From Candidatus Saccharibacteria bacterium CG_4_10_14_0_2_um_filter_52_9 (lineage in GTDB: Bacteria > Actinomycetota > Acidimicrobiia > Acidimicrobiales > RAAP-2): a stretch of 49,342 bases of DNA. Below the pieces are notes generated by a model. It saw only the letters and a program-made list of their open reading frames with translations, did not search any database and was not told the origin of the DNA. Shown here piece by piece: positions 19,651-28,971 of this stretch. The stretch spans positions 1-49,342 of the forward strand of contig CAJCJA010000021.1 in NCBI GenBank assembly GCA_903970515.1, in the 5' to 3' direction. How positions within the stretch are numbered: position 1 is the first letter of the stretch; every line of letters begins with the position of its first letter. The position numbers and the translations under genes are program-made.

Positions 19651-19742
19651 GAACTGACCAAATTTTCTAATGACGCATAGTAGAACCAGGGACACCGTAT
19701 TGATATCAACGAAATGGCATGATTACTATGGTGTAGCGAAAT

Positions 19743-19759
19743 GTAGCAAAATGTGCTAC
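19743..19759 (+). promoter_or_regulatory. Probable operator of the Phd/PIN antitoxin-toxin operon
   Basis: GTAGC (19743-19747) and GCTAC (19755-19759) form an inverted repeat 10 nt before the antitoxin start. A further GTAGCGAAAT copy lies just upstream at about 19733, giving tandem GTAGCRAAAT half-sites. Phd/YefM antitoxins bind short palindromes overlapping their own promoter, and TACGAT at 19757-19762 could be a -10 element. Confidence 0.5.
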
Positions 19760-19768
19760 GATACTGGG

Positions 19769-20017
19769 ATGGCAAAGACAATTGCTCAAAGGGATTTACG
19801 AAACGACAACGCCAAGTTGATCAATGAGGTGGTCGCAGGGGAAAGTTTCGTGGTGACTCGGAACGGAGTTCCAGTGGCTGAGTTATTGCCTTTGCGCGCC
19901 CATCGGCAGACCGTTGTGTCCAAAGCTGCGGTACTAGAAGCGTTTACTAGCGGACCACGAATTGACGCAAAACAGTTTCGCAAGGATCTCGACGACGTAA
20001 TAGATCAGGAGCTTTAG
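19769..20017 (+). CDS. Phd/YefM-family antitoxin
   Basis: 82 residues from ATG 19769 (MAKTIAQRDLRNDNAKLINE). The N-terminal DNA-binding half shows the Phd pattern with GESFVVTRNGVPVAELLPLR. The C-terminal tail with AVLEAFTSGPRIDAKQFRKD and LDDVIDQEL is the toxin-neutralising region. It is followed without a gap by the PIN-domain toxin (TAGATG junction), the usual antitoxin-first arrangement. It would bind its own operator at 19743-19759 (inference). Confidence 0.88.
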   Translation: MAKTIAQRDLRNDNAKLINEVVAGESFVVTRNGVPVAELLPLRAHRQTVVSKAAVLEAFTSGPRIDAKQFRKDLDDVIDQEL

Positions 20018-20413
20018 ATGACTGCAGGGTTATTGGACACGTCAGTGATTATTGACTTGGACGACCCGACGGTTCAGGCTCATTTACCAGAAGAGATATC
20101 AGTATGTGCTATCTCTCTCGCGGAACTGGCTGCGGGCCCAATCCTCGCGAACACCGCAACCGAACGAGCTCTCAGGCAGAAACGATTGCAGCAGATCGAA
20201 TCGACGTTTGATTCGTTGCCCTTTGATGCGAGCGCTGCGCGAAGTTACGCTCAGGTGGTTGCGGCGACGATTGAGTCAGGTCGAAAGCATCGATCTCGAG
20301 TTGCCGACCTCTTCATTGCTTCGATTGCCCACTCGAATGATCTTGACTTCTACACAAGGAATCCAGATGATTTTACGGGTCTAGAAGAACTTATTCGTAT
20401 CATCATCATCTAG
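20018..20413 (+). CDS. PIN-domain (VapC-type) toxin ribonuclease
   Basis: 131 residues. The acidic active site is readable: D7 in LLDTSVIIDL, E36 in ISLAELAAG, D97 in RVADLFIASIAH, and the NPDDF motif (D117/D118) near the end. VapC toxins cleave tRNA or rRNA and are held inactive by the partner antitoxin. The C-terminus RIIII is slightly unusual compared with the common hydrophobic V-x-V ending, but no active-site residue is missing, so the module looks intact, unlike the mazEF pair next to it. Confidence 0.88.
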   Translation: MTAGLLDTSVIIDLDDPTVQAHLPEEISVCAISLAELAAGPILANTATERALRQKRLQQIESTFDSLPFDASAARSYAQVVAATIESGRKHRSRVADLFIASIAHSNDLDFYTRNPDDFTGLEELIRIIII

Positions 20414-20681: not shown

Positions 20682-20861
20682 ATGAAGTTTACGGTTCCCA
20701 TCATTCATGAAGCAGCCTGGTGCGTGGCGCGATGTCTTGAGGTTGATGTTGTAAGTCAAGGCGTGAGTGCTGAAGAAGCCACCCGTTGCAATCATTTGTT
20801 GGGCGATGCTTCTTTGGCTCTAATGAACATCGACGGGCCAGTTGAACTTCACAGCCCGTAG
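20682..20861 (+). pseudogene. HicB-like antitoxin remnant
   Basis: From ATG 20682, with GGGAG just upstream, the frame reads MKFTVPIIHEAAWCVARCLE then VDVVSQGVSAEEA. This is the beta-strand core of HicB-like proteins (pattern M-K-[FY]-T-V ... W-x-[VA]-[AR]-C-L-E-x-D-V-x-S-Q-G). After EEA the expected helix (NLREAL-type) is not conserved, and the frame runs into the 3' end of the convergent DoxX gene (41-nt overlap). No HicA toxin is present. I read it as a truncated, probably non-functional copy; a short functional protein of 59 residues cannot be excluded. Confidence 0.5.
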
Positions 20862-21356
20862 ACGACGAGCCAACAGAGCGTCGACACTGAAGCGACCCGA
20901 TCCCAATGCGAGGACGACGAGGGCCAAGGCGATAAGGACCAGGTTGAATTCGTAGCCGGGCGTCGCGGTGAGTGAGTTAATCCCGTGTTTGCCAGTCACG
21001 GTGATGATTGCCATGGCTTGATCACCAATGAGGGCCAAGGCGCCAAGACGGGTGCCAATCCCGAGCACCAACGCGAGCGCAGCACCAAACTCGATGAGAC
21101 CTCCGAGAACGGCAAAGAATCCCCCAGGGTGCAAGTGGGCAGTCGTGGAAAAAAAGATGGCCGTTCGATGAATACCCGGACCATTGAACCAGCCGAAGAG
21201 TTTGCCTGAGCCGTAGTAAACGAATACCCAAAAGAGCACGATACGCCCGGTCACGATTGCCACTTCCTCCGCCGCAGTTGTGTCGTTCGCCGACGACATG
21301 GCAATCCGAACCAGGAGTGTCTTCGAATCGACGATCAGGCGACGCGACGAAATCAC
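20820..21356 (-). CDS. DoxX-family membrane protein
   Basis: 178 residues if started at GTG 21356, whose GTGA overlaps the hydroxylase stop; 159 residues if started at ATG 21299. Four hydrophobic helices are seen, with DoxX landmarks ATGRIVLFWVFVYYGSGKLF-like (here IVTGRIVLFWVFVYYGSGKL) and GGFFAVLGGLIEFGAALALV. DoxX/SURF4-type proteins are linked to thiosulfate-quinone oxidoreductase or membrane redox homeostasis. The coupling with the hydroxylase gene suggests a membrane-related joint function (inference). Confidence 0.82.
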   Translation of the reverse strand: MISSRRLIVDSKTLLVRIAMSSANDTTAAEEVAIVTGRIVLFWVFVYYGSGKLFGWFNGPGIHRTAIFFSTTAHLHPGGFFAVLGGLIEFGAALALVLGIGTRLGALALIGDQAMAIITVTGKHGINSLTATPGYEFNLVLIALALVVLALGSGRFSVDALLARRLRAVKFNWPVDVH

Positions 21357-22396
21357 TGCGGTACCGGCGGCAGTTCCGTCCGGTCACGGCGGCTTTCCAA
21401 GGGTCGAAATGGTGCCACAAGTTGGGTGGCCAACACCGACAGGTGTCGTGGACGCTGCGCTGCTTGCTCGACTCGTAGAGGTCGGCCCGGTAGTCCCGTG
21501 TCTGCTCGAATCGTGTCCTTCGTAGGAAATACCGCTCGGCGTGAGAATTGGTCCCAAATCGTTAGGGCGAAGCCCAAGTTGACATCCTGGCGACCGTCCA
21601 AGCGATGGTGGATTCGGTGATAGTTCGGGCTTACGAACATCCGCTCTAGGGGGCCAAATCCTAGGTTCGTGTTGGAGTGTTCCAACGCAACGAACGCCGC
21701 GTAAGCCACCAACAAGGTGATGGGTACTGCGCCATTGGCGATGAGGACGATTCCGGGTACCAAGGTGATGAGGTACGAGACGTGAATGAGCGGATGAGTC
21801 CGAAAGACGGTCAGGACACTCATGTCTTCCTGTGAATGGTGCAATTCGTGGAAACGCCAAAACATTTGGATGTGATGATTTGCGAGATGAGCGAGCCAAT
21901 TACAACCGTCCATCAACACAAAGATGAGCGCGATCACTACGGCGCGCGGCAAGAAGTCGATTCGCGGGATAACTATCCATGGCAGGATTTTTCGGGCGGC
22001 TATGGCGAACGACAAAGAAAGAGCGACCACTAGGGGTGCGACGATCGTTGCGTTCAAAATCGTGTAGATCAGATCCTGACGATAGCCTCGAGCAAAAATG
22101 GGCCGCCGCTGCGCGGGATGTAATCGTTCGAGCACCATTAGTGCGGCGAGTATCGCGAGTGCGACCGGCCCAACAAGAATTACACGCTGGCTGCTCATTG
22201 AGGCGGCAAAGCTGTCGCCACCCCAGTGACTCGCCCAACCAATGGCCACGAGAACCATCGCCACTGCGAGAATGGAAAACGCCGGAACGTAGACGCGAGA
22301 ACGCCACTTCGCGCGCGTGCGGTGAACGGATGGAAAATCCGCATGCTTGGAAGAAAGCGGTGAAAATGGTGTTCGCGAAATTGTCTGGGTGGACAC
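21353..22396 (-). CDS. Fatty-acid hydroxylase / sterol-desaturase family membrane di-iron enzyme
   Basis: 347 residues from GTG 22396 (AAAGG ribosome site). Several hydrophobic segments flank the His clusters HLANHH, FHELHHS and HRIHHRLDG, the eight-His di-iron ligand set of the fatty-acid hydroxylase superfamily. Members hydroxylate fatty acids, sterols, carotenoids or plasmalogen-type lipids with O2. The N-terminal 35 residues are polar and the C-terminal 40 are Arg/Pro-rich. It is coupled to the DoxX gene downstream. Confidence 0.88.
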   Translation of the reverse strand: MSTQTISRTPFSPLSSKHADFPSVHRTRAKWRSRVYVPAFSILAVAMVLVAIGWASHWGGDSFAASMSSQRVILVGPVALAILAALMVLERLHPAQRRPIFARGYRQDLIYTILNATIVAPLVVALSLSFAIAARKILPWIVIPRIDFLPRAVVIALIFVLMDGCNWLAHLANHHIQMFWRFHELHHSQEDMSVLTVFRTHPLIHVSYLITLVPGIVLIANGAVPITLLVAYAAFVALEHSNTNLGFGPLERMFVSPNYHRIHHRLDGRQDVNLGFALTIWDQFSRRAVFPTKDTIRADTGLPGRPLRVEQAAQRPRHLSVLATQLVAPFRPLESRRDRTELPPVPQ

Positions 22397-22422: not shown

Positions 22423-22974
22423 CTAGAAGCCGACCCCGCCACCACCGGGGCTCGTGGTCGTGGTCGTCTTACCGGAGCCGGCGGGCTTGATCGTTACCAC
22501 GTCGGACCACGTGCCCCACGTGTCAGTCACATTGCCCCTGACCTCTCCGGGTGCCGTGTCGGGAGCGAACCAGTAGAGTGCTTTTCCGTCGTAGGTGACC
22601 TGCAGGACACCACCGGGACGAGCAATCGTGCCGAGTTTCTCTGCACTGACGCCCTTGCCTGCGGTCGCCTTCTTCACACCTTTTGGAAGAATGACTTCGG
22701 GCCAGATCTTGTGGCACGCGACACCACAGGCGACATCACTTGGCTTCAATGTGTACACCGTCGTGTTGCTAATGAGTATCGTGCCAAAAGTCGAAGTCTT
22801 CAACGAGGAGATGATGACGCTCTTCGCGAGATGGCTCGATGCCGCGCCCGCCGGATTTACGCCGATCGCGATTGAAACGAGTCCACTCAAGGCGAAGCAC
22901 GCCGCCGTGAATTTACCGGTGACCGCTCGAGAACCCAAGCGACGTTGTGATGGTGAGGTACGACGAACTCGCAT
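22423..22974 (-). CDS. Secreted COG4315-like protein with GGGVGF tail (paralogue A)
   Basis: 183 residues from ATG 22974, after AAGGAG. The signal peptide is Arg-rich, with core FTAACFALSGLVSIAIGV and an AxA site near PAGA-ASS. The domain resembles the COG4315/PF03640 secreted-repeat family: VYTLKPSDVACGVACHKIWP with two Cys, and VTYDGKALYWFAPDTAPGEV. The protein ends in KTTTTTSPGGGGVGF, a short Thr-rich stalk and a tail shared with paralogue B at 24437. It has the shared ECF-type promoter at 22989-23028. The function is unknown; the family is associated with the cell surface. Confidence 0.85.
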   Translation of the reverse strand: MRVRRTSPSQRRLGSRAVTGKFTAACFALSGLVSIAIGVNPAGAASSHLAKSVIISSLKTSTFGTILISNTTVYTLKPSDVACGVACHKIWPEVILPKGVKKATAGKGVSAEKLGTIARPGGVLQVTYDGKALYWFAPDTAPGEVRGNVTDTWGTWSDVVTIKPAGSGKTTTTTSPGGGGVGF

Positions 22975-22988
22975 GATGCACTCCTTAT

Positions 22989-23028
22989 TTCGACATCATG
23001 ACTACGTGCGGGACGACCTCCCGGATCA
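22989..23028 (-). promoter_or_regulatory. ECF-type promoter of paralogue A
   Basis: On the minus strand TGATCC (23023-23028) is followed after exactly 17 nt by GTAGTCATGATGTCGAA (22989-23005). The same two blocks with the same spacing precede paralogue B (24385-24424), and a close version precedes the sigma gene. The spacers are unrelated, so conservation of the blocks implies function. Confidence 0.75.
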
Positions 23029-23037
23029 CGAAACTGA

Positions 23038-23706
23038 TCAGGTTCGTAGAGTCGCGCTCGCGATCACCGCGCCACTCGCACCTATCAACTCGGCGCCACG
23101 AATTTGATTCGCGGCGACGTTGAGGCGAGAGGTCCACGCGCCATAACCGTGCTTTAACGAAAAACTACCGACGTCTACCACGCGTCCGTCTTTCAGCGTG
23201 ACCTCGCACCACGCCACGCCGGTCAAACTGTCATCATCCACGCTCATGTACAACCATGGGGGTCGACCAGGCGAGACGAACACCTGGCCGAGGACTTCGC
23301 CGTCTGACATAAGACGTGCCGTCAAAGGTTTCGACGTCGCGCTTGGTGTTTTGCTCGTACCTTCGTGGATCGTGGTACCAATACCGAAGCTCACGACGAA
23401 AATGAGTGCCGCCGCTACCAGCCACAGCGCGCGGTGATGGCGCCGCGCCATCGGGGCCGCGCTGTCGCTGAATCTTTCGACCACGCGCGACTCAAATCCC
23501 AAAGGTGGTTCCGCCTGGGGCGCGAGCCACAACAGGGAATCGGTCACCGCCGTCAGCGACGCCAACTCCGCTCGGCAATCTGAGCAGGACTCAAGATGTT
23601 CTATGAGCACTGATCGATGGTTGCCCGAAATCGTCCCGAGCGCGAATTCGAGAAGATTCGCGCTGATGGCCTCGCAACTGGCGCGGTCGCGTGGGTCTTC
23701 GCTCAC
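23038..23706 (-). CDS. Zinc-type anti-sigma factor, membrane-anchored
   Basis: 222 residues. The N-terminal ZAS motif H37-x3-C41-x2-C44 (HLESCSDCRAEL) is the zinc-associated sigma-binding domain. A single transmembrane helix lies at about 93-113 (ALWLVAAALIFVVSFGIGTT), followed by an exported C-terminal domain with an anti-sigma-K-like beta pattern (ARLMSDGEVLGQVFVSPGRP, YMSVDDDSLTGVAWCEVTLK). GTG 23706 overlaps the sigma stop by 4 nt (GTGA). It should hold the sigma factor at the membrane and respond to an outside signal. Confidence 0.88.
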   Translation of the reverse strand: MSEDPRDRASCEAISANLLEFALGTISGNHRSVLIEHLESCSDCRAELASLTAVTDSLLWLAPQAEPPLGFESRVVERFSDSAAPMARRHHRALWLVAAALIFVVSFGIGTTIHEGTSKTPSATSKPLTARLMSDGEVLGQVFVSPGRPPWLYMSVDDDSLTGVAWCEVTLKDGRVVDVGSFSLKHGYGAWTSRLNVAANQIRGAELIGASGAVIASATLRT

Positions 23707-24284
23707 GACGCCTCCCTCGTTCCGATGGCGTCGCGCAGTTTCGCCATGCCGAGCCGGACCCTCCCTTTGGCGGTACCGAGGGGGATTGATTCGAGTTCGG
23801 CGACTTCGGCCATTGTCCTTCCGTACATGGTTGCCAGCACGACTGCCCGTCGTTGCTCCACGGGCAAGGTAGCCAGTGCGTCTCGGGCGCGAGCCACGGT
23901 GTCGGTCATCATTACGGCGTCGTCCATGTTTCGTTCCTCACTCATAAGGTTCATGAACACGCGATCCTGAGGAGCCGTGGGAATCGATCGACGTACTCGA
24001 AGCGAGTCGATGGCGAGATTGCGAGTAATGGTGAGTGACCACGACGTAACAGAACCGCGTCGTGCATCAAAGACAGATGCGTGTCGCAGAATCCGGATCA
24101 ACGCTTCTTGGGTGACGTCCTCCGCCAATCCCGGGTCGCCGAGGATGCCAAGGGCAAGACCAAACAATCGTCGCTGATATCGGCGCACGAAAATGAGAAC
24201 TGACTGATCATCGTTGACCGCGATGCCCGCAAGCAGCGCCTCGTCCGAGATTTCGTCATTCGATCCAGTTTGACTTCGCATCAT
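23703..24284 (-). CDS. ECF RNA-polymerase sigma factor
   Basis: 193 residues. Region 2 runs FVRRYQRRLFGLALGILGDP, LAEDVTQEALIRILRHASVF. Region 4 is LATLPVEQRRAVVLATMYGR with TMAEVAELESIPLGTAKGRV, a sigma-70 region 4.2 HTH. The size and architecture are those of ECF factors of the SigK/RpoE type paired with a ZAS anti-sigma. The frame opens upstream to GTG 24305, but the predicted -10 (GTACTA, 24289-24294) lies inside that extension. The tandem ATGs at 24284 and 24281 are therefore the likely start, possibly leaderless. Confidence 0.88.
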   Translation of the reverse strand: MMRSQTGSNDEISDEALLAGIAVNDDQSVLIFVRRYQRRLFGLALGILGDPGLAEDVTQEALIRILRHASVFDARRGSVTSWSLTITRNLAIDSLRVRRSIPTAPQDRVFMNLMSEERNMDDAVMMTDTVARARDALATLPVEQRRAVVLATMYGRTMAEVAELESIPLGTAKGRVRLGMAKLRDAIGTREAS

Positions 24285-24288
24285 TAGA

Positions 24289-24317
24289 TAGTACGGCGCA
24301 GCCACCTGAAACGATCA
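24289..24317 (-). promoter_or_regulatory. Probable autoregulated ECF promoter of the sigma gene
   Basis: Minus-strand TGATCG (24312-24317), then a 17-nt spacer, then GTACTA (24289-24294). Compared with the two paralogue promoters, one of six bases differs in the -35 block, the spacing is identical, and GTA is kept in the -10. ATG codons follow within 5-8 nt, so the transcript would be leaderless or nearly so. Confidence 0.6.
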
Positions 24318-24384
24318 CTCAACGCGACGGCACATGAAGTGCAACACGAGGCGGTGGTCATGCAGACAATTGCGCATCACGTCG

Positions 24385-24424
24385 TGATCCCTGCAAGGCA
24401 GCTGGCCGTAGTCATGATGTCGAA
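24385..24424 (+). promoter_or_regulatory. ECF-type promoter of paralogue B
   Basis: TGATCC (24385-24390), 17-nt spacer (24391-24407), GTAGTCATGATGTCGAA (24408-24424). Both blocks are identical to those upstream of paralogue A. The AAAGGAG ribosome site of the gene follows at once. Confidence 0.75.
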
Positions 24425-24436
24425 CAAAGGAGCTTT

Positions 24437-25078
24437 ATGAATGTACCGCACGCGCCAGTTTCAAAAAGTATCTTCGCATCAAGATTTTCTAAAGGAAGGT
24501 TGGCGGTCGCCTGCTGCGTCGCCATTGGTTTCGCACCGCTCTCGAGTGGTGCGGGTGCTTCGGGTTCGTCAGTGAGTCATGACACAAAAAGCGTCGTCAT
24601 CTCGACTCTGAAGACGACTAAGTTCGGAACGATTTTGGTGAGTGGTACCACCCTGTACACCTTGATACCTAGTGGCGTCGCCTGTGGCGTAACGTGTCAA
24701 AAGTACTGGCCCGAAGTGCTCCTTCCCGAGGGTACGACGAGGGCAATCGCCGGCGTTGGCGTCAAGGCATCCCAGCTCGGGACGCTCACTCGTCCTGGGG
24801 GTCTTCGTCAAGTCACCTACTTGGGCAACGCGCTGTACCGATTTGTTCTCGACACTGCGCCGGGACAGGTTCGGGGCAACGTGAGTGACACGTGGGGTAG
24901 GTGGTCCGACGTGGTGACGTCCAAGCCAGTGGGCACTCTCAAGTCCACCACGACGACCGTGAAACAAACGACGACAACTACGCTCAAGTCGACCACCACG
25001 ACGAATGCGCCGGAAACGACCACCACCGTACCGCCCACCACGACCACTGTCCCGAGCGGAGGGGGCGTTGGATTCTAA
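24437..25078 (+). CDS. Secreted COG4315-like protein with long Thr-rich stalk and GGGVGF tail (paralogue B)
   Basis: 213 residues from ATG 24437 after AAAGGAG. A signal peptide ends near GAGA-SGSS. The globular part closely follows paralogue A: KSVVISTLKTTKFGTILVSG, VACGVTCQKYWPEVLLPEG, then LDTAPGQVRGNVSDTWGRWS. The Asp of the YTLxPSD motif is Gly here (LYTLIPSG). It is followed by about 45 residues of Thr-rich repeats (TTTTLKSTTTTNAPETTTT-like), suited to spanning the cell wall, and the tail VPSGGGVGF. It faces the sigma operon and is driven by the shared ECF-type promoter. Function unknown. Confidence 0.85.
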   Translation: MNVPHAPVSKSIFASRFSKGRLAVACCVAIGFAPLSSGAGASGSSVSHDTKSVVISTLKTTKFGTILVSGTTLYTLIPSGVACGVTCQKYWPEVLLPEGTTRAIAGVGVKASQLGTLTRPGGLRQVTYLGNALYRFVLDTAPGQVRGNVSDTWGRWSDVVTSKPVGTLKSTTTTVKQTTTTTLKSTTTTNAPETTTTVPPTTTTVPSGGGVGF

Positions 25079-26486: not shown

Positions 26487-27410
26487 TCAATGGCGGTCCA
26501 ACTCGATGTACGAGATTTTCGCCTCGTTGTTCTCGATAATTCCTTGGCCGATGCCCGCGGGGCCCGTGACTCGAAGTCAGACGTTTGCGGTCAAAGCGAC
26601 GCGTTCATTGGCGACAAGGTAGAGAAGATCACTGTCGTAGGTGACGTGCTCAGTCCCGCCAGCTCGCCTGACGAAGCCGAGCGCGCCGCCGTGTACTACA
26701 CCAACTACCCGAGGATCTCCCTCGGAGAGGAGTGGCACCCAATCATTTTCACAGGCTGGGTCGCAGTCAGCGACGCCACCGGCATCCTTACGAAGCATGT
26801 AGACGGTGAGGGCCAGGGGACGGACATTGACGTCACGCTCGACGGCGAGGACTCTGGTCCCGTTGGGCAAGACGCCAGGTTCCATCGTCGCCACGCCGGG
26901 GGCCGGCGCGCCATTCAACGAGGAGACGAGTTCCCAATAGCCGCGCCACGGAGCGAGGGGATGGACCGTCTCAACGTAGTCTTCCCCTTCAGGCTTGAAC
27001 GGACGAGACGGTGGATCGAAATGGCGCCACTTCGCGCAATCGGCGTTCCTCTCGTTGTAAAGGCAGGCCAATCGTCGATGGCGTTACCCTGCAACATGTC
27101 GCGCATTGGTCCTGACCAAGTAAGTGGCACACTCGCGATCGGGCCCAGATCGTACCCTTGGGCCATCGTGATGCCACAACCAAATTTCGAGCCGTGGTCG
27201 CCGCTGAATTCGTAGAGGGGATAGCCCGAGAGGACGCCCGAACCTACGACGAGGATTGATTCGTACTGCGACGTGTTCTACACAGAAACTTCGGAACCCA
27301 CTCGCGACGTGGCGAAGGCAACTGAGGCGTGCGGGACTATAACTATTGATGAAGCTGCAACGAGCAGGCCAACGAGAACTCGAACAACACGGCGGATTTC
27401 AAGCCGCAAG
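26487..27410 (-). pseudogene. Decayed larger COG4315 secreted-repeat gene
   Basis: Starting with a TTG that overlaps the DtxR-gene stop, the frame gives an apparent signal peptide (RRVVRVLVGLLVAASSIVIV). An in-frame TAG follows, then a family block SGYPLYEFSGDHGSKFGCGI, PIASVPLTWSGPMRDML, DDWPAFTTRGTPIA. About 30 expected residues are then missing and the frame shifts. The rest, FDPPSRPFKPEGEDYVETVH, APWRGYWELVSSLNGAPAPG, TVYMLRKDAGGVADCDPACE and RRAGGTEHVTYDSDLLYLV, is in the next frame. A second in-frame stop (TGA) interrupts the tail before GPAGIGQGIIENNEAKISYI. At least three lesions make this a pseudogene. Intact relatives of COG4315 have two such repeats. Confidence 0.75.
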
Positions 27411-28070
27411 TTCCACCCAAATCAATTGCGCCGCCGCACGCGGAAGCACCACGTGTCTTCCTTCAACGACCAACTCAACTTCGCTGGTTTCCTCGGGCGA
27501 TGCGACGACTTCGATGAAGCTGCCTTCGGAGATGTCGTTCGCGGTAAGCATCGTCAAGAGATCTTTCGCTTCGTGTTCGGCGACTTCGGAAATCCTTCGA
27601 ACGTTTGCCCTTGTTCCTGTCCCCAGCGTCGCGAGCGCTGCCAGTTCACCGTACGCGGCTTCGCGGCCAGGAATCGGATTGCCGTGCGGACAGGTCAAGG
27701 GACGTTGCAGCGATGCATCGATCCGATCAATGAGGAAATCCGACACGGCGGACGAGAGACGCTCGGCCTCGTCATCGGCGCTTGCCCAATCGAGCCCAAG
27801 AACGTCGGTTAACCATCGCTCGAGAATTCGGTGGTGTCGGACTAGGTTTGATGCGACCTCGGTGCCTTTGGATGTCAAAGTGACGCTTCGATCGTGGTGA
27901 ATCTCAATCCATCCGTCTCGCTCGAGCCGCCGCATCGCTTCACTGACAGTCGGGGGACTTACCAAGAGCCACGCGGCAATCTTGCCCGGCCGTACGACCT
28001 CACCCTCCGCGGCGATGTAGAAGATCACCTCGAGATACTTATCGACCGTCGCAGAGTTATTGCTCGACAC
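27399..28070 (-). CDS. DtxR-family regulator with substituted metal-binding residues
   Basis: 223 residues from GTG 28070, ribosome site GAGGG. The N-terminal winged HTH is at about 8-65 (LLVSPPTVSEAMRRLERDGW). The dimerisation domain contains VRHHRILERWLTDVLGLDWA, and the FeoA/SH3-like domain follows from about 150. Aligned with DtxR, the ancillary-site H79 and E83 are kept, but primary-site residues appear changed: M10 to K (TVDKYL), H98 to D, C102 to E, E105 to S and H106 to S (DDEAERLSS). It overlaps the FTR1 permease stop by 14 nt. It may be metal-independent or use a different metal (inference). Confidence 0.85.
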   Translation of the reverse strand: MSSNNSATVDKYLEVIFYIAAEGEVVRPGKIAAWLLVSPPTVSEAMRRLERDGWIEIHHDRSVTLTSKGTEVASNLVRHHRILERWLTDVLGLDWASADDEAERLSSAVSDFLIDRIDASLQRPLTCPHGNPIPGREAAYGELAALATLGTGTRANVRRISEVAEHEAKDLLTMLTANDISEGSFIEVVASPEETSEVELVVEGRHVVLPRAAAQLIWVELAA

Positions 28071-28971
28071 TGAGGTTTCCCTCCTTCGTAGCGGGCGGCA
28101 CCTGCGCCGAAATGGTGGCGCTCGAGGAACGTGCAGAATGCCCGCCCCCGCGACCCAATCGCACGAAGAGCGTCACGCTGACGATGATGTAGGCGAGCCA
28201 CACCACGACTTGCAAGACCGTCGGGTGGTCGGCGTAACCGAGTAAGGAATGCAGGATGTCGCCGACACTGGACGACTCGGAGACGACACGTGAAGAGTTC
28301 CACAGCACGTGCTCGCCAAAAGGAAGCCAACCCAACTGCTGCAAGTTCTCAATCGCGTCGGCGAGCAGTCCCGCGGCAAAAACCATGAGCACCGTGCCGA
28401 GCACGCGAAAGAAGCGTCGCATGTTCAAGCGCGCACCCATCTTGAAGATGGCGTAGGCAATAATGAGGGCGCACGCGAGTCCGAGGGCCGCGCCCAGAAG
28501 CAAGAGGTTGCCGTGAACGGGCGTCGCGGCTTGACGTGAGCTGGCGAACACGATCGCGAGCGTGAAGACCATCGTCTCGAGTCCTTCACGGCCCACCGCC
28601 TGGAAGGCGAGGAGCGCGAGTCCCCAACGGTTACCGCGAGATAGCGCGAGGTCGCTGCGTCGTTCGAGTTCCTTCGAAAGTCCCTTTGCGTGGCGTTGCA
28701 TCCAAAAAGTCATGTACGTCAGCACTGCTGCCGCCACCAGGTAGGTCGTCGTTTCGAAGTACGTCTGAATGTTCGAACCGTCATATTGTTGAATGAGTTC
28801 AAAGGCGGCGATCCCACCGCCAATCACCAGGACCAATGCCGCCGCTACACCCCAGTAGACGTCTCGAAAGTGGCTTCGTTTTCCAATACGTTGGAGGTAA
28901 GCGAGAAGGATCGCGACGATCATTGATGCTTCAATGCCTTCACGCAAGAAGATGACGAAAGTTGGAATCAC
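28057..28971 (-). CDS. FTR1-family iron permease
   Basis: 304 residues with seven hydrophobic segments. The two iron-binding R-E-G-x-E motifs are present: FLREGIEAS near residue 10 and VGREGLETM in the second half. Members (EfeU/FTR1) take up ferric iron with a periplasmic or surface partner; no efeO or efeB gene is visible here. It is the first gene of a two-gene operon with the DtxR-type regulator, and a consensus iron box lies 34 nt upstream of its ATG. Confidence 0.9.
   Translation of the reverse strand: MIPTFVIFLREGIEASMIVAILLAYLQRIGKRSHFRDVYWGVAAALVLVIGGGIAAFELIQQYDGSNIQTYFETTTYLVAAAVLTYMTFWMQRHAKGLSKELERRSDLALSRGNRWGLALLAFQAVGREGLETMVFTLAIVFASSRQAATPVHGNLLLLGAALGLACALIIAYAIFKMGARLNMRRFFRVLGTVLMVFAAGLLADAIENLQQLGWLPFGEHVLWNSSRVVSESSSVGDILHSLLGYADHPTVLQVVVWLAYIIVSVTLFVRLGRGGGHSARSSSATISAQVPPATKEGNLSVEQ

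Follow-up and report, generated by a model that had tools for sequence, protein, structure and literature searches.

Three genes in one stretch of bacterial DNA are preceded by the same pair of short sequence blocks, which raises the question of whether all three are transcribed by the sigma factor that one of them encodes. The stretch (hereafter the window; 49,342 nucleotides in full) is contig CAJCJA010000021.1 of Candidatus Saccharibacteria bacterium CG_4_10_14_0_2_um_filter_52_9 (GCA_903970515.1), an acidimicrobial genome of 1.97 Mb in 56 contigs. The genes encode an extracytoplasmic function (ECF) sigma factor and two predicted secreted proteins of the Lipoprotein_15 family, A and B. From sequence comparison we consider it very probable that they form an ECF sigma regulon, in which the sigma gene itself, an operon headed by A, and B would be read from promoters of the form TGATC[CGT]-N16-CGTA under the control of an anti-sigma factor. 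A preliminary description of this DNA had proposed a candidate self-regulated regulon of surface or secreted proteins; this proposal is supported by the conservation of the element, at exact spacing, at sigma and A/B-type genes, and by its occurrence before A/B-type genes only in genomes bearing the sigma, on other contigs as well.

The promoter element in the window and its genome

The minus strand carries the sigma gene and, overlapping it, the anti-sigma gene, then A and the genes for a fatty-acid-hydroxylase-family protein and a DoxX protein; B is divergent from the sigma gene. The features are as follows.

20820..21356, minus strand: DoxX-family protein, start codon uncertain (PF07681, 8.9e-14); overlaps the hydroxylase stop
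21353..22396, minus strand: fatty-acid-hydroxylase-family protein (PF04116, 1.9e-21); 26 nt after A
22423..22974, minus strand: A, predicted secreted Lipoprotein_15 protein (presumably the type named COG4315), putative regulon target (PF03640, 31.3 bits; cut-off 24.4)
23003..23028, minus strand: predicted A promoter, TGATCC-N16-CGTA (element sequence and conservation)
23038..23706, minus strand: membrane anti-sigma factor of zinc-finger (HxxxCxxC) type (Pfam zf-HC2, 2.1e-6)
23703..24284, minus strand: ECF sigma factor gene, start ATG at 24284 or 24281, longest frame from 24305
24292..24317, minus strand: predicted sigma promoter, TGATCG-N16-CGTA (element sequence and conservation)
24385..24410, plus strand: predicted B promoter, TGATCC-N16-CGTA, divergent from the sigma promoter (element sequence and conservation)
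24437..25078, plus strand: B, second predicted secreted Lipoprotein_15 protein, putative divergent target (PF03640, 26.4 bits; cut-off 24.4)

The sites before sigma, A and B are all present with the sequences and spacing first reported. The best form of the element, taken from relatives, is TGATC[CGT]-N16-CGTA, which is the register of the preliminary description except that a conserved C at the end of the spacer is assigned to the second box. In silico, the promoter assignment is firm; that the sigma itself binds the element is what the comparisons suggest, and the copy upstream of the sigma gene fits autoregulation. The block following the spacer, GTAGTCATGATGTCGAA, is identical over 17 nt in A and B, as had been described. 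The nearest relative (L108) retains part of the identity beyond CGTA, more distant ones do not, and we therefore place this identity outside the recognised motif. A long -10 box comprising all 17 nt was rejected, since beyond that relative conservation is limited to CGTA, often followed by GT or CT.

The sigma promoter lies inside the longest sigma frame, which begins at 24305, in agreement with the preliminary description, and candidate ATG codons follow CGTA after 7 nt (24284) or 10 nt (24281). Across 13 sigma loci, an in-frame ATG stands 10 nt after CGTA in 11; the other two have an ATG at 9 nt (L046) and a GTG at 9 nt with an ATG at 6 nt (L045). The start codon follows CGTA too closely to leave space for a ribosome-binding site, so that the sigma mRNA is probably leaderless or nearly so, a start already suggested for this gene and well supported by the conserved position 9-10 nt after CGTA. 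By reading, an AAGGAG lies 6 nt before the ATG of A and 4 nt before that of B.

A scan of the genome with the pattern in its original register (TGATCS-N17-GTASTM) returned seven matches, three of them at this locus, against one in the reversed control. With TGATCB-N16-CGTA there were 11 matches and again one in the reversed control, the three at this locus falling within 1.4 kb. In terms of mechanically called open reading frames (ORFs), seven of the eight remaining matches lie inside a frame of at least 120 aa and one lies outside. A larger regulon in this genome was rejected, as seven of the eight are inside such frames. Three of these matches could still be promoters, and are not claimed as regulon members because conservation has been shown for none. 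By reading, C43:1674 lies 62 nt before a 191-aa ORF resembling a membrane protein, and C22:124628 lies 52 nt before a 110-aa ORF resembling a NifU-like protein. The third (C37:65556-65581, L007) reads TGATCG-N16-CGTAGTCATGAT, with 12 nt from CGTA in common with the A and B promoters; a dihydroxy-acid dehydratase ORF begins 53 nt downstream, and the match overlaps the probable start of an IclR gene that runs divergently.

Conservation of the element and presence of the sigma

Of 61 related genomes, 30 had a sigma homologue at E<=1e-20; in 17 of them, including that of the window, it reached E<=2e-47, and stretches around the other 16 were taken. Named records were added from a listing of 80 loci, of which L108-L133 were used, minus L109, which shares a contig with L041; L134-L187, which were weaker, were left out. 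The resulting set, window excluded, comprised 12 close relatives and 29 distant sigma loci, some being near kin (L115 and L116, and L113 and L119, on the tree). TGATC[CGT]-N16-CGTA was present upstream of sigma in all 12 close relatives; over spacings N8-N25 the sole other match was one locus at N12, and the reversed control gave none. In the distant loci, [CT][AG]ATC[CT]-N16-CGTA preceded 19 of 29 sigma genes (18 CAATC[CT] and one TGATCC), with no match at other spacings or in the reversed control, and 21 of 29 were recovered when any NNATCN box was admitted before N16-CGTA. Box letters at 100% in the corresponding matrices are so by construction; spacing and reversal form the test.

Similarly, we identified the element at N16 before 15 of 15 close and 11 of 11 distant A/B-type genes in these sigma loci (tblastn, E<=1e-5; close set E<1e-20, window excluded), with no matches at N10-15 or N17-22 and none in the reversed controls. 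Eleven of the 29 distant loci, those of Tessaracoccus (L128) and a Propionibacteriaceae metagenome-assembled genome (MAG; L131) among them, supplied the distant genes, and the other 18 loci have no A/B-type gene in the stretch examined. Chance as the source of the element is rejected on the strength of the spacing and reversed controls together with the comparison of genomes.

A profile search for A/B in the same 61 genomes gave matches in 37, and the upstream regions of 51 rows from 49 loci were examined, with TGATC[CGT] or [CT][ACG]ATC[CT] as first box; the remaining matches of that search were either already in the locus-based count or left out. In rows from partial matches the gene start is uncertain. 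Genomes with sigma were defined as the 17 at E<=2e-47, so that the remainder includes some, G007, G026 and G060 for example, whose ECF homologues are weaker (32-39% identity). The element was found in 13 of 18 rows from sigma-bearing genomes (TG-type 11 of 14, CA-type 2 of 4) and in 0 of 33 rows from sigma-free genomes (31 genes, two being counted twice in overlapping stretches). Ten of the 13 positive rows are linked genes already in the locus-based count, one being the window's A, and three are on other contigs (G034:C23, G010:C45 and G051:C21). The G034 paralogue, noticed through its GG[VI]GF protein end, has the element at the gene start. Close A homologues in two sigma-free genomes, L208 (2e-70) and L209 (2e-63), are without the element; these genomes are 96% and 86% complete.

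These results bear on a different origin for the shared blocks, namely that they are leftovers of a duplication of A, B and their upstream DNA and carry no regulatory meaning. A and B are 57% identical, with 17 nt exactly matching after the spacer, and the downstream block of L108 is similar, as a duplication would have it. However, the sigma gene has the element and no paralogy to A or B, the spacers diverge where the boxes and their 16-nt spacing hold (12/12, 15/15 and 11/11 genes of other species), and close A homologues in sigma-free genomes do not carry the element. As a full account duplication is refuted by the relatives and the sigma-free genomes, and we regard it as extremely improbable; it may nevertheless lie behind the identical 17 nt after the A and B spacers.

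Several results weigh against regulation of these genes by the sigma. Not even NNATCN-N16-CGTA precedes eight of the 29 distant sigmas, and when one mismatch was allowed in these eight, a candidate appeared at N16 in five, against one at N15/N17. Of the 18 rows in sigma-bearing genomes, five are without the motif, these being distant paralogues (E 3e-26 or weaker). The element is also missing from two weak A/B-like matches beside close sigmas (L110 and L041, E about 1e-11), which fall outside the E<1e-20 count. The unlinked evidence consists of three genes, of which that in G051 has a CCATCC box, and no site was found at the sigma gene of G051 itself. Within the genus, sigma-bearing and sigma-free genomes are not set apart by the number of motif copies they contain. 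Most matches are background, so that the motif alone predicts no targets; it is the short motif, presence of the sigma and an A/B-type gene together that mark regulon members in these genomes.

The gene order of the window recurs in the close relatives. Sigma, anti-sigma, A-type gene, hydroxylase and DoxX are complete in 9 of 12 loci, and in 11 of the 12 the gene after the A-type gene is that for the hydroxylase. In L043 the contig ends after the hydroxylase, in L042 the A-hydroxylase-DoxX group is a few kb off, and in L049 neither hydroxylase nor DoxX occurs in the stretch taken around sigma. A second A/B-type gene near sigma, like B, is present in L042, L046 and L108. Next to the distant sigmas, neither a hydroxylase nor a DoxX gene was found. 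The hydroxylase gene is probably in one operon with A, and the A promoter would then serve an A-hydroxylase-DoxX operon.

We accordingly picture the regulon, in outline, as a membrane-linked switch. The ECF sigma would be held at the membrane by the neighbouring anti-sigma until a signal outside the cell or in the envelope frees it, and would then direct RNA polymerase to TGATC[CGT]-N16-CGTA promoters. Its own promoter would provide positive feedback, with a nearly leaderless mRNA yielding further sigma and anti-sigma, the A promoter would yield A together with the lipid-hydroxylase-family and DoxX proteins, and the B promoter would yield B. The output may be a remodelled cell surface. This would link Lipoprotein_15 proteins, described in Pfam only as a 'secreted repeat of unknown function', to a promoter, to a candidate regulator and to neighbours in an operon, for uncultivated members of the Acidimicrobiia and for a few Propionibacteriaceae.

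SigK, the -35 box and the recognition helix

The nearest known system is SigK-RskA-MPT83, and the hint at SigK-type xATCC boxes in the preliminary description was apt: the recognisable distant sites are mostly CAATCC/T, and SigK-type loci have CAATCC or CCATCC. PMC7509140 describes a minimal SigK cassette in which the sigma and anti-sigma genes are joined by a lipoprotein gene preceded by a sigma site, autoregulation of SigK in M. tuberculosis, and a pair of SigK cysteines (Cys133 and Cys183) conserved in 94% of ECF18 and 56% of ECF19. We searched 119 genomes of the phylum with the SigK model (NF007228) and obtained matches at E<=1e-45 in 35, of which 17 were above the cut-off; the match in the window's own genome was a different gene, on contig C27. 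Promoters were counted in 30 SigK-type loci, 17 of them above the cut-off. C[AC]ATC[CT]-N16-CGAA gave 15 matches, 12 in loci above the cut-off, compared with 0-3 at N10-15 and N17-22. Neither C[AC]ATC[CT] nor TGATC[CTG] was followed by CGTA at N16 in any of the 30 loci. TGATC[CTG]-N16-CGAA had five matches (0-4 at other spacings), so that TG may not be foreign to SigK-type loci. From these counts the window's sigma group and the SigK group share the -35 type and the spacing and differ at the -10.

Could the locus be a strict SigK/RskA system with different cargo? SigK is both the best NCBIfam match of the sigma and its best PDB profile match (4nqw), the xxATCC -35 and 16-nt spacer are common to both (TGATC[CG] in the window, mostly CAATCC in distant members), TG boxes do occur with CGAA in SigK-type loci, and the succession of sigma, anti-sigma and secreted-protein genes resembles the mpt83-sigK-rskA cassette (PMC7509140). 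Against this, the sigma scores 120.2 bits where the SigK model (PRK09646/NF007228) has a cut-off of 226, its -10 is CGTA and not CGAA, and it contains no cysteine at all, hence neither Cys133 nor Cys183 (close relatives have none in 8 of 12 and 2-3 in 4 of 12). The anti-sigma is of zf-HC2 and not RskA type, the target is a Lipoprotein_15 protein, and a closer SigK homologue lies elsewhere in the same genome. We therefore consider strict membership improbable. Compared with SigK-RskA-MPT83/MPT70 (ECF18/ECF19; mycobacteria, Yersinia), the window shares an ECF sigma with a membrane anti-sigma and the -35 and spacer, and differs in its -10, in TGATCC within its clade, in its cysteine-free sigma and zinc-finger-type anti-sigma, and in its Lipoprotein_15, hydroxylase and DoxX targets, which are not of the type of MPT83 (a fasciclin protein, we assume). 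The window system would work like the SigK system but fails several of the tests by which SigK membership is judged.

The closer SigK homologue (C27:4735-5277, L276) is a second SigK-like sigma gene with an anti-sigma-like gene, divergent from two genes that by reading are ferritin-like, and an ACATCC-N16-CGAA site stands before the nearer of these two. It is possibly an insulated paralogue.

The -35 box varies together with the sigma. All 14 sigmas with TGATC boxes have GTAK[SG]R[IVL]RL in region 4.2, and all 18 with CAATC[CT] have GT[AS]KTRIR followed by T, A, S, Q or N. The 14 TG-type sigmas form a single clade on the tree (14 rows, support 99/95), indicating that a switch from CAATCC to TGATCC happened once, along with two recognition-helix residues, which we take by alignment to correspond to positions 172 and 176 of E. 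coli sigma-E. As a single event without independent replicates, it makes the link between residues and bases a hypothesis, and the rule is not a simple one, because L050 and L051 combine TGAAC boxes with a T-type helix. The TG-type box is carried by the sigma promoter, the linked targets and a target on another contig. It is conceivable, though we would not favour it on present evidence, that two helix changes in the ancestor of the clade (T to S/G, and T/A/S/Q/N to L) re-programmed the -35 from CA to TG and, together with the CGTA/CGAA difference, keep the regulon apart from the SigK-like paralogue of the same cell. If so, this would be a natural and testable case in which an ECF regulon as a whole switched its promoter code; the coupled change of box and helix is a ready-made pair for testing the evolution of ECF promoter specificity.

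The same observations bear on whether some other factor (a different sigma, a repressor or an activator) that merely co-occurs with the locus binds the element. Binding by this sigma is argued from sequence, the genome holds at least one other ECF sigma (the SigK homologue on C27), and a regulator distributed like the sigma is formally still an alternative, which also counts against the sigma as regulator. The element nevertheless precedes A/B-type genes solely in genomes with this sigma, is absent with either box type from the 30 SigK-type loci, and has a -35 type that changes along with the recognition helix of this very sigma. Two boxes 16 nt apart, with CGTA as the second, near start codons are moreover the anatomy of an ECF promoter. 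Control by another factor is, in our estimate, very unlikely.

Protein families and neighbouring genes

The sigma matches Sigma70_r2 (4.6e-19) and Sigma70_r4_2 (8.8e-9) in Pfam, along with Sigma70_r4 and, below cut-off, Sigma70_ECF. No region 3 model matched at E<=0.01 in Pfam, leaving regions 2 and 4, the layout of ECF (group 4) sigmas. Its closest named records are Acidimicrobiaceae MAGs labelled bog, palsa and fen, which we take to be permafrost-peat samples, and the host appears to be a soil actinobacterium.

The sigma and anti-sigma frames overlap at the end of the former, as expected of a co-encoded ECF pair, and the anti-sigma has a single hydrophobic stretch by reading. At E<=0.01 its only Pfam matches are zf-HC2 and a sub-cut-off DUF6338. 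H37, C41 and C44, the HxxxCxxC of the ZAS domain, are invariant in 17 of 17 homologues. This motif is shared with ECF/zinc-binding anti-sigma pairs of the ChrR, RsiW and RslA type, and there are weak PDB profile matches to 3hug_B (presumably RslA), RsiW and ChrR (E 3e-5 to 4e-4). The window differs from those pairs in sigma subgroup, promoter and targets, and its anti-sigma is unlike ChrR at the C-terminus, where ChrR has a cupin domain.

By reading, A and B each have a signal-peptide-like N-terminus, a Thr-rich linker and a GGGVGF end, and neither has a lipobox cysteine; both are predicted to be secreted, and may reach the surface. Both are above the PF03640 cut-off, like the Lipoprotein_15/SCO0930 family lipoproteins. 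They differ from the SCO0930 family in matching only part of NF040526, far under its equivalog cut-off (54-55 bits against 275), in the missing cysteine and in the Thr-rich GGGVGF tail. A PDB sequence search with A and B found nothing credible (best E 0.16), and the AlphaFold2 model of A (mean pLDDT 53.9) was too poor for a fold search. The hydroxylase has distant similarity to the ornithine-lipid hydroxylase OlsE, far under the cut-off. The hydroxylase-family and DoxX neighbours point to the membrane or the cell surface.

At the level of titles and abstract openings, among the top-ranked entries of long listings, we found no literature on the TGATC motif or on a Lipoprotein_15 sigma regulon. 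In kind the system is familiar, an ECF sigma that probably controls its own gene along with envelope targets; what sets it apart is its promoter, the type of its anti-sigma and its cargo.

We additionally noted several features of the targets and the surrounding DNA. The Thr-rich linker and GGGVGF-stop close both A (22423-22440, minus strand) and B (25061-25078, plus strand). The DNA pattern for GG[VI]GF-stop had 10 matches in seven genomes, with four in the reversed control; nine were at the sigma/A/B locus type and one in a regulon member on another contig. Among distant A/B-type proteins, those of L115, L116, L120 and L121 end in GGYGY, and those of L128, L131 and L132 do not. The GGGVGF end is possibly a surface-attachment or sorting tail.

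A third Lipoprotein_15/SCO0930-like frame lies at 26577-27071 on the minus strand (PF03640 14.4 bits, sub-cut-off; NF040526 23 bits). It is perhaps a decayed copy, and the genome scan placed no TGATCB-N16-CGTA near it. Two adjoining frames at 19670-20413 (plus strand) resemble, by reading, a Phd-type antitoxin and a PIN-domain toxin, in a VapBC-like arrangement. Finally, at 27399-28971 (minus strand), a DtxR-family metal-dependent repressor gene (Pfam) overlaps a gene that by reading resembles an FTR1-type iron permease.

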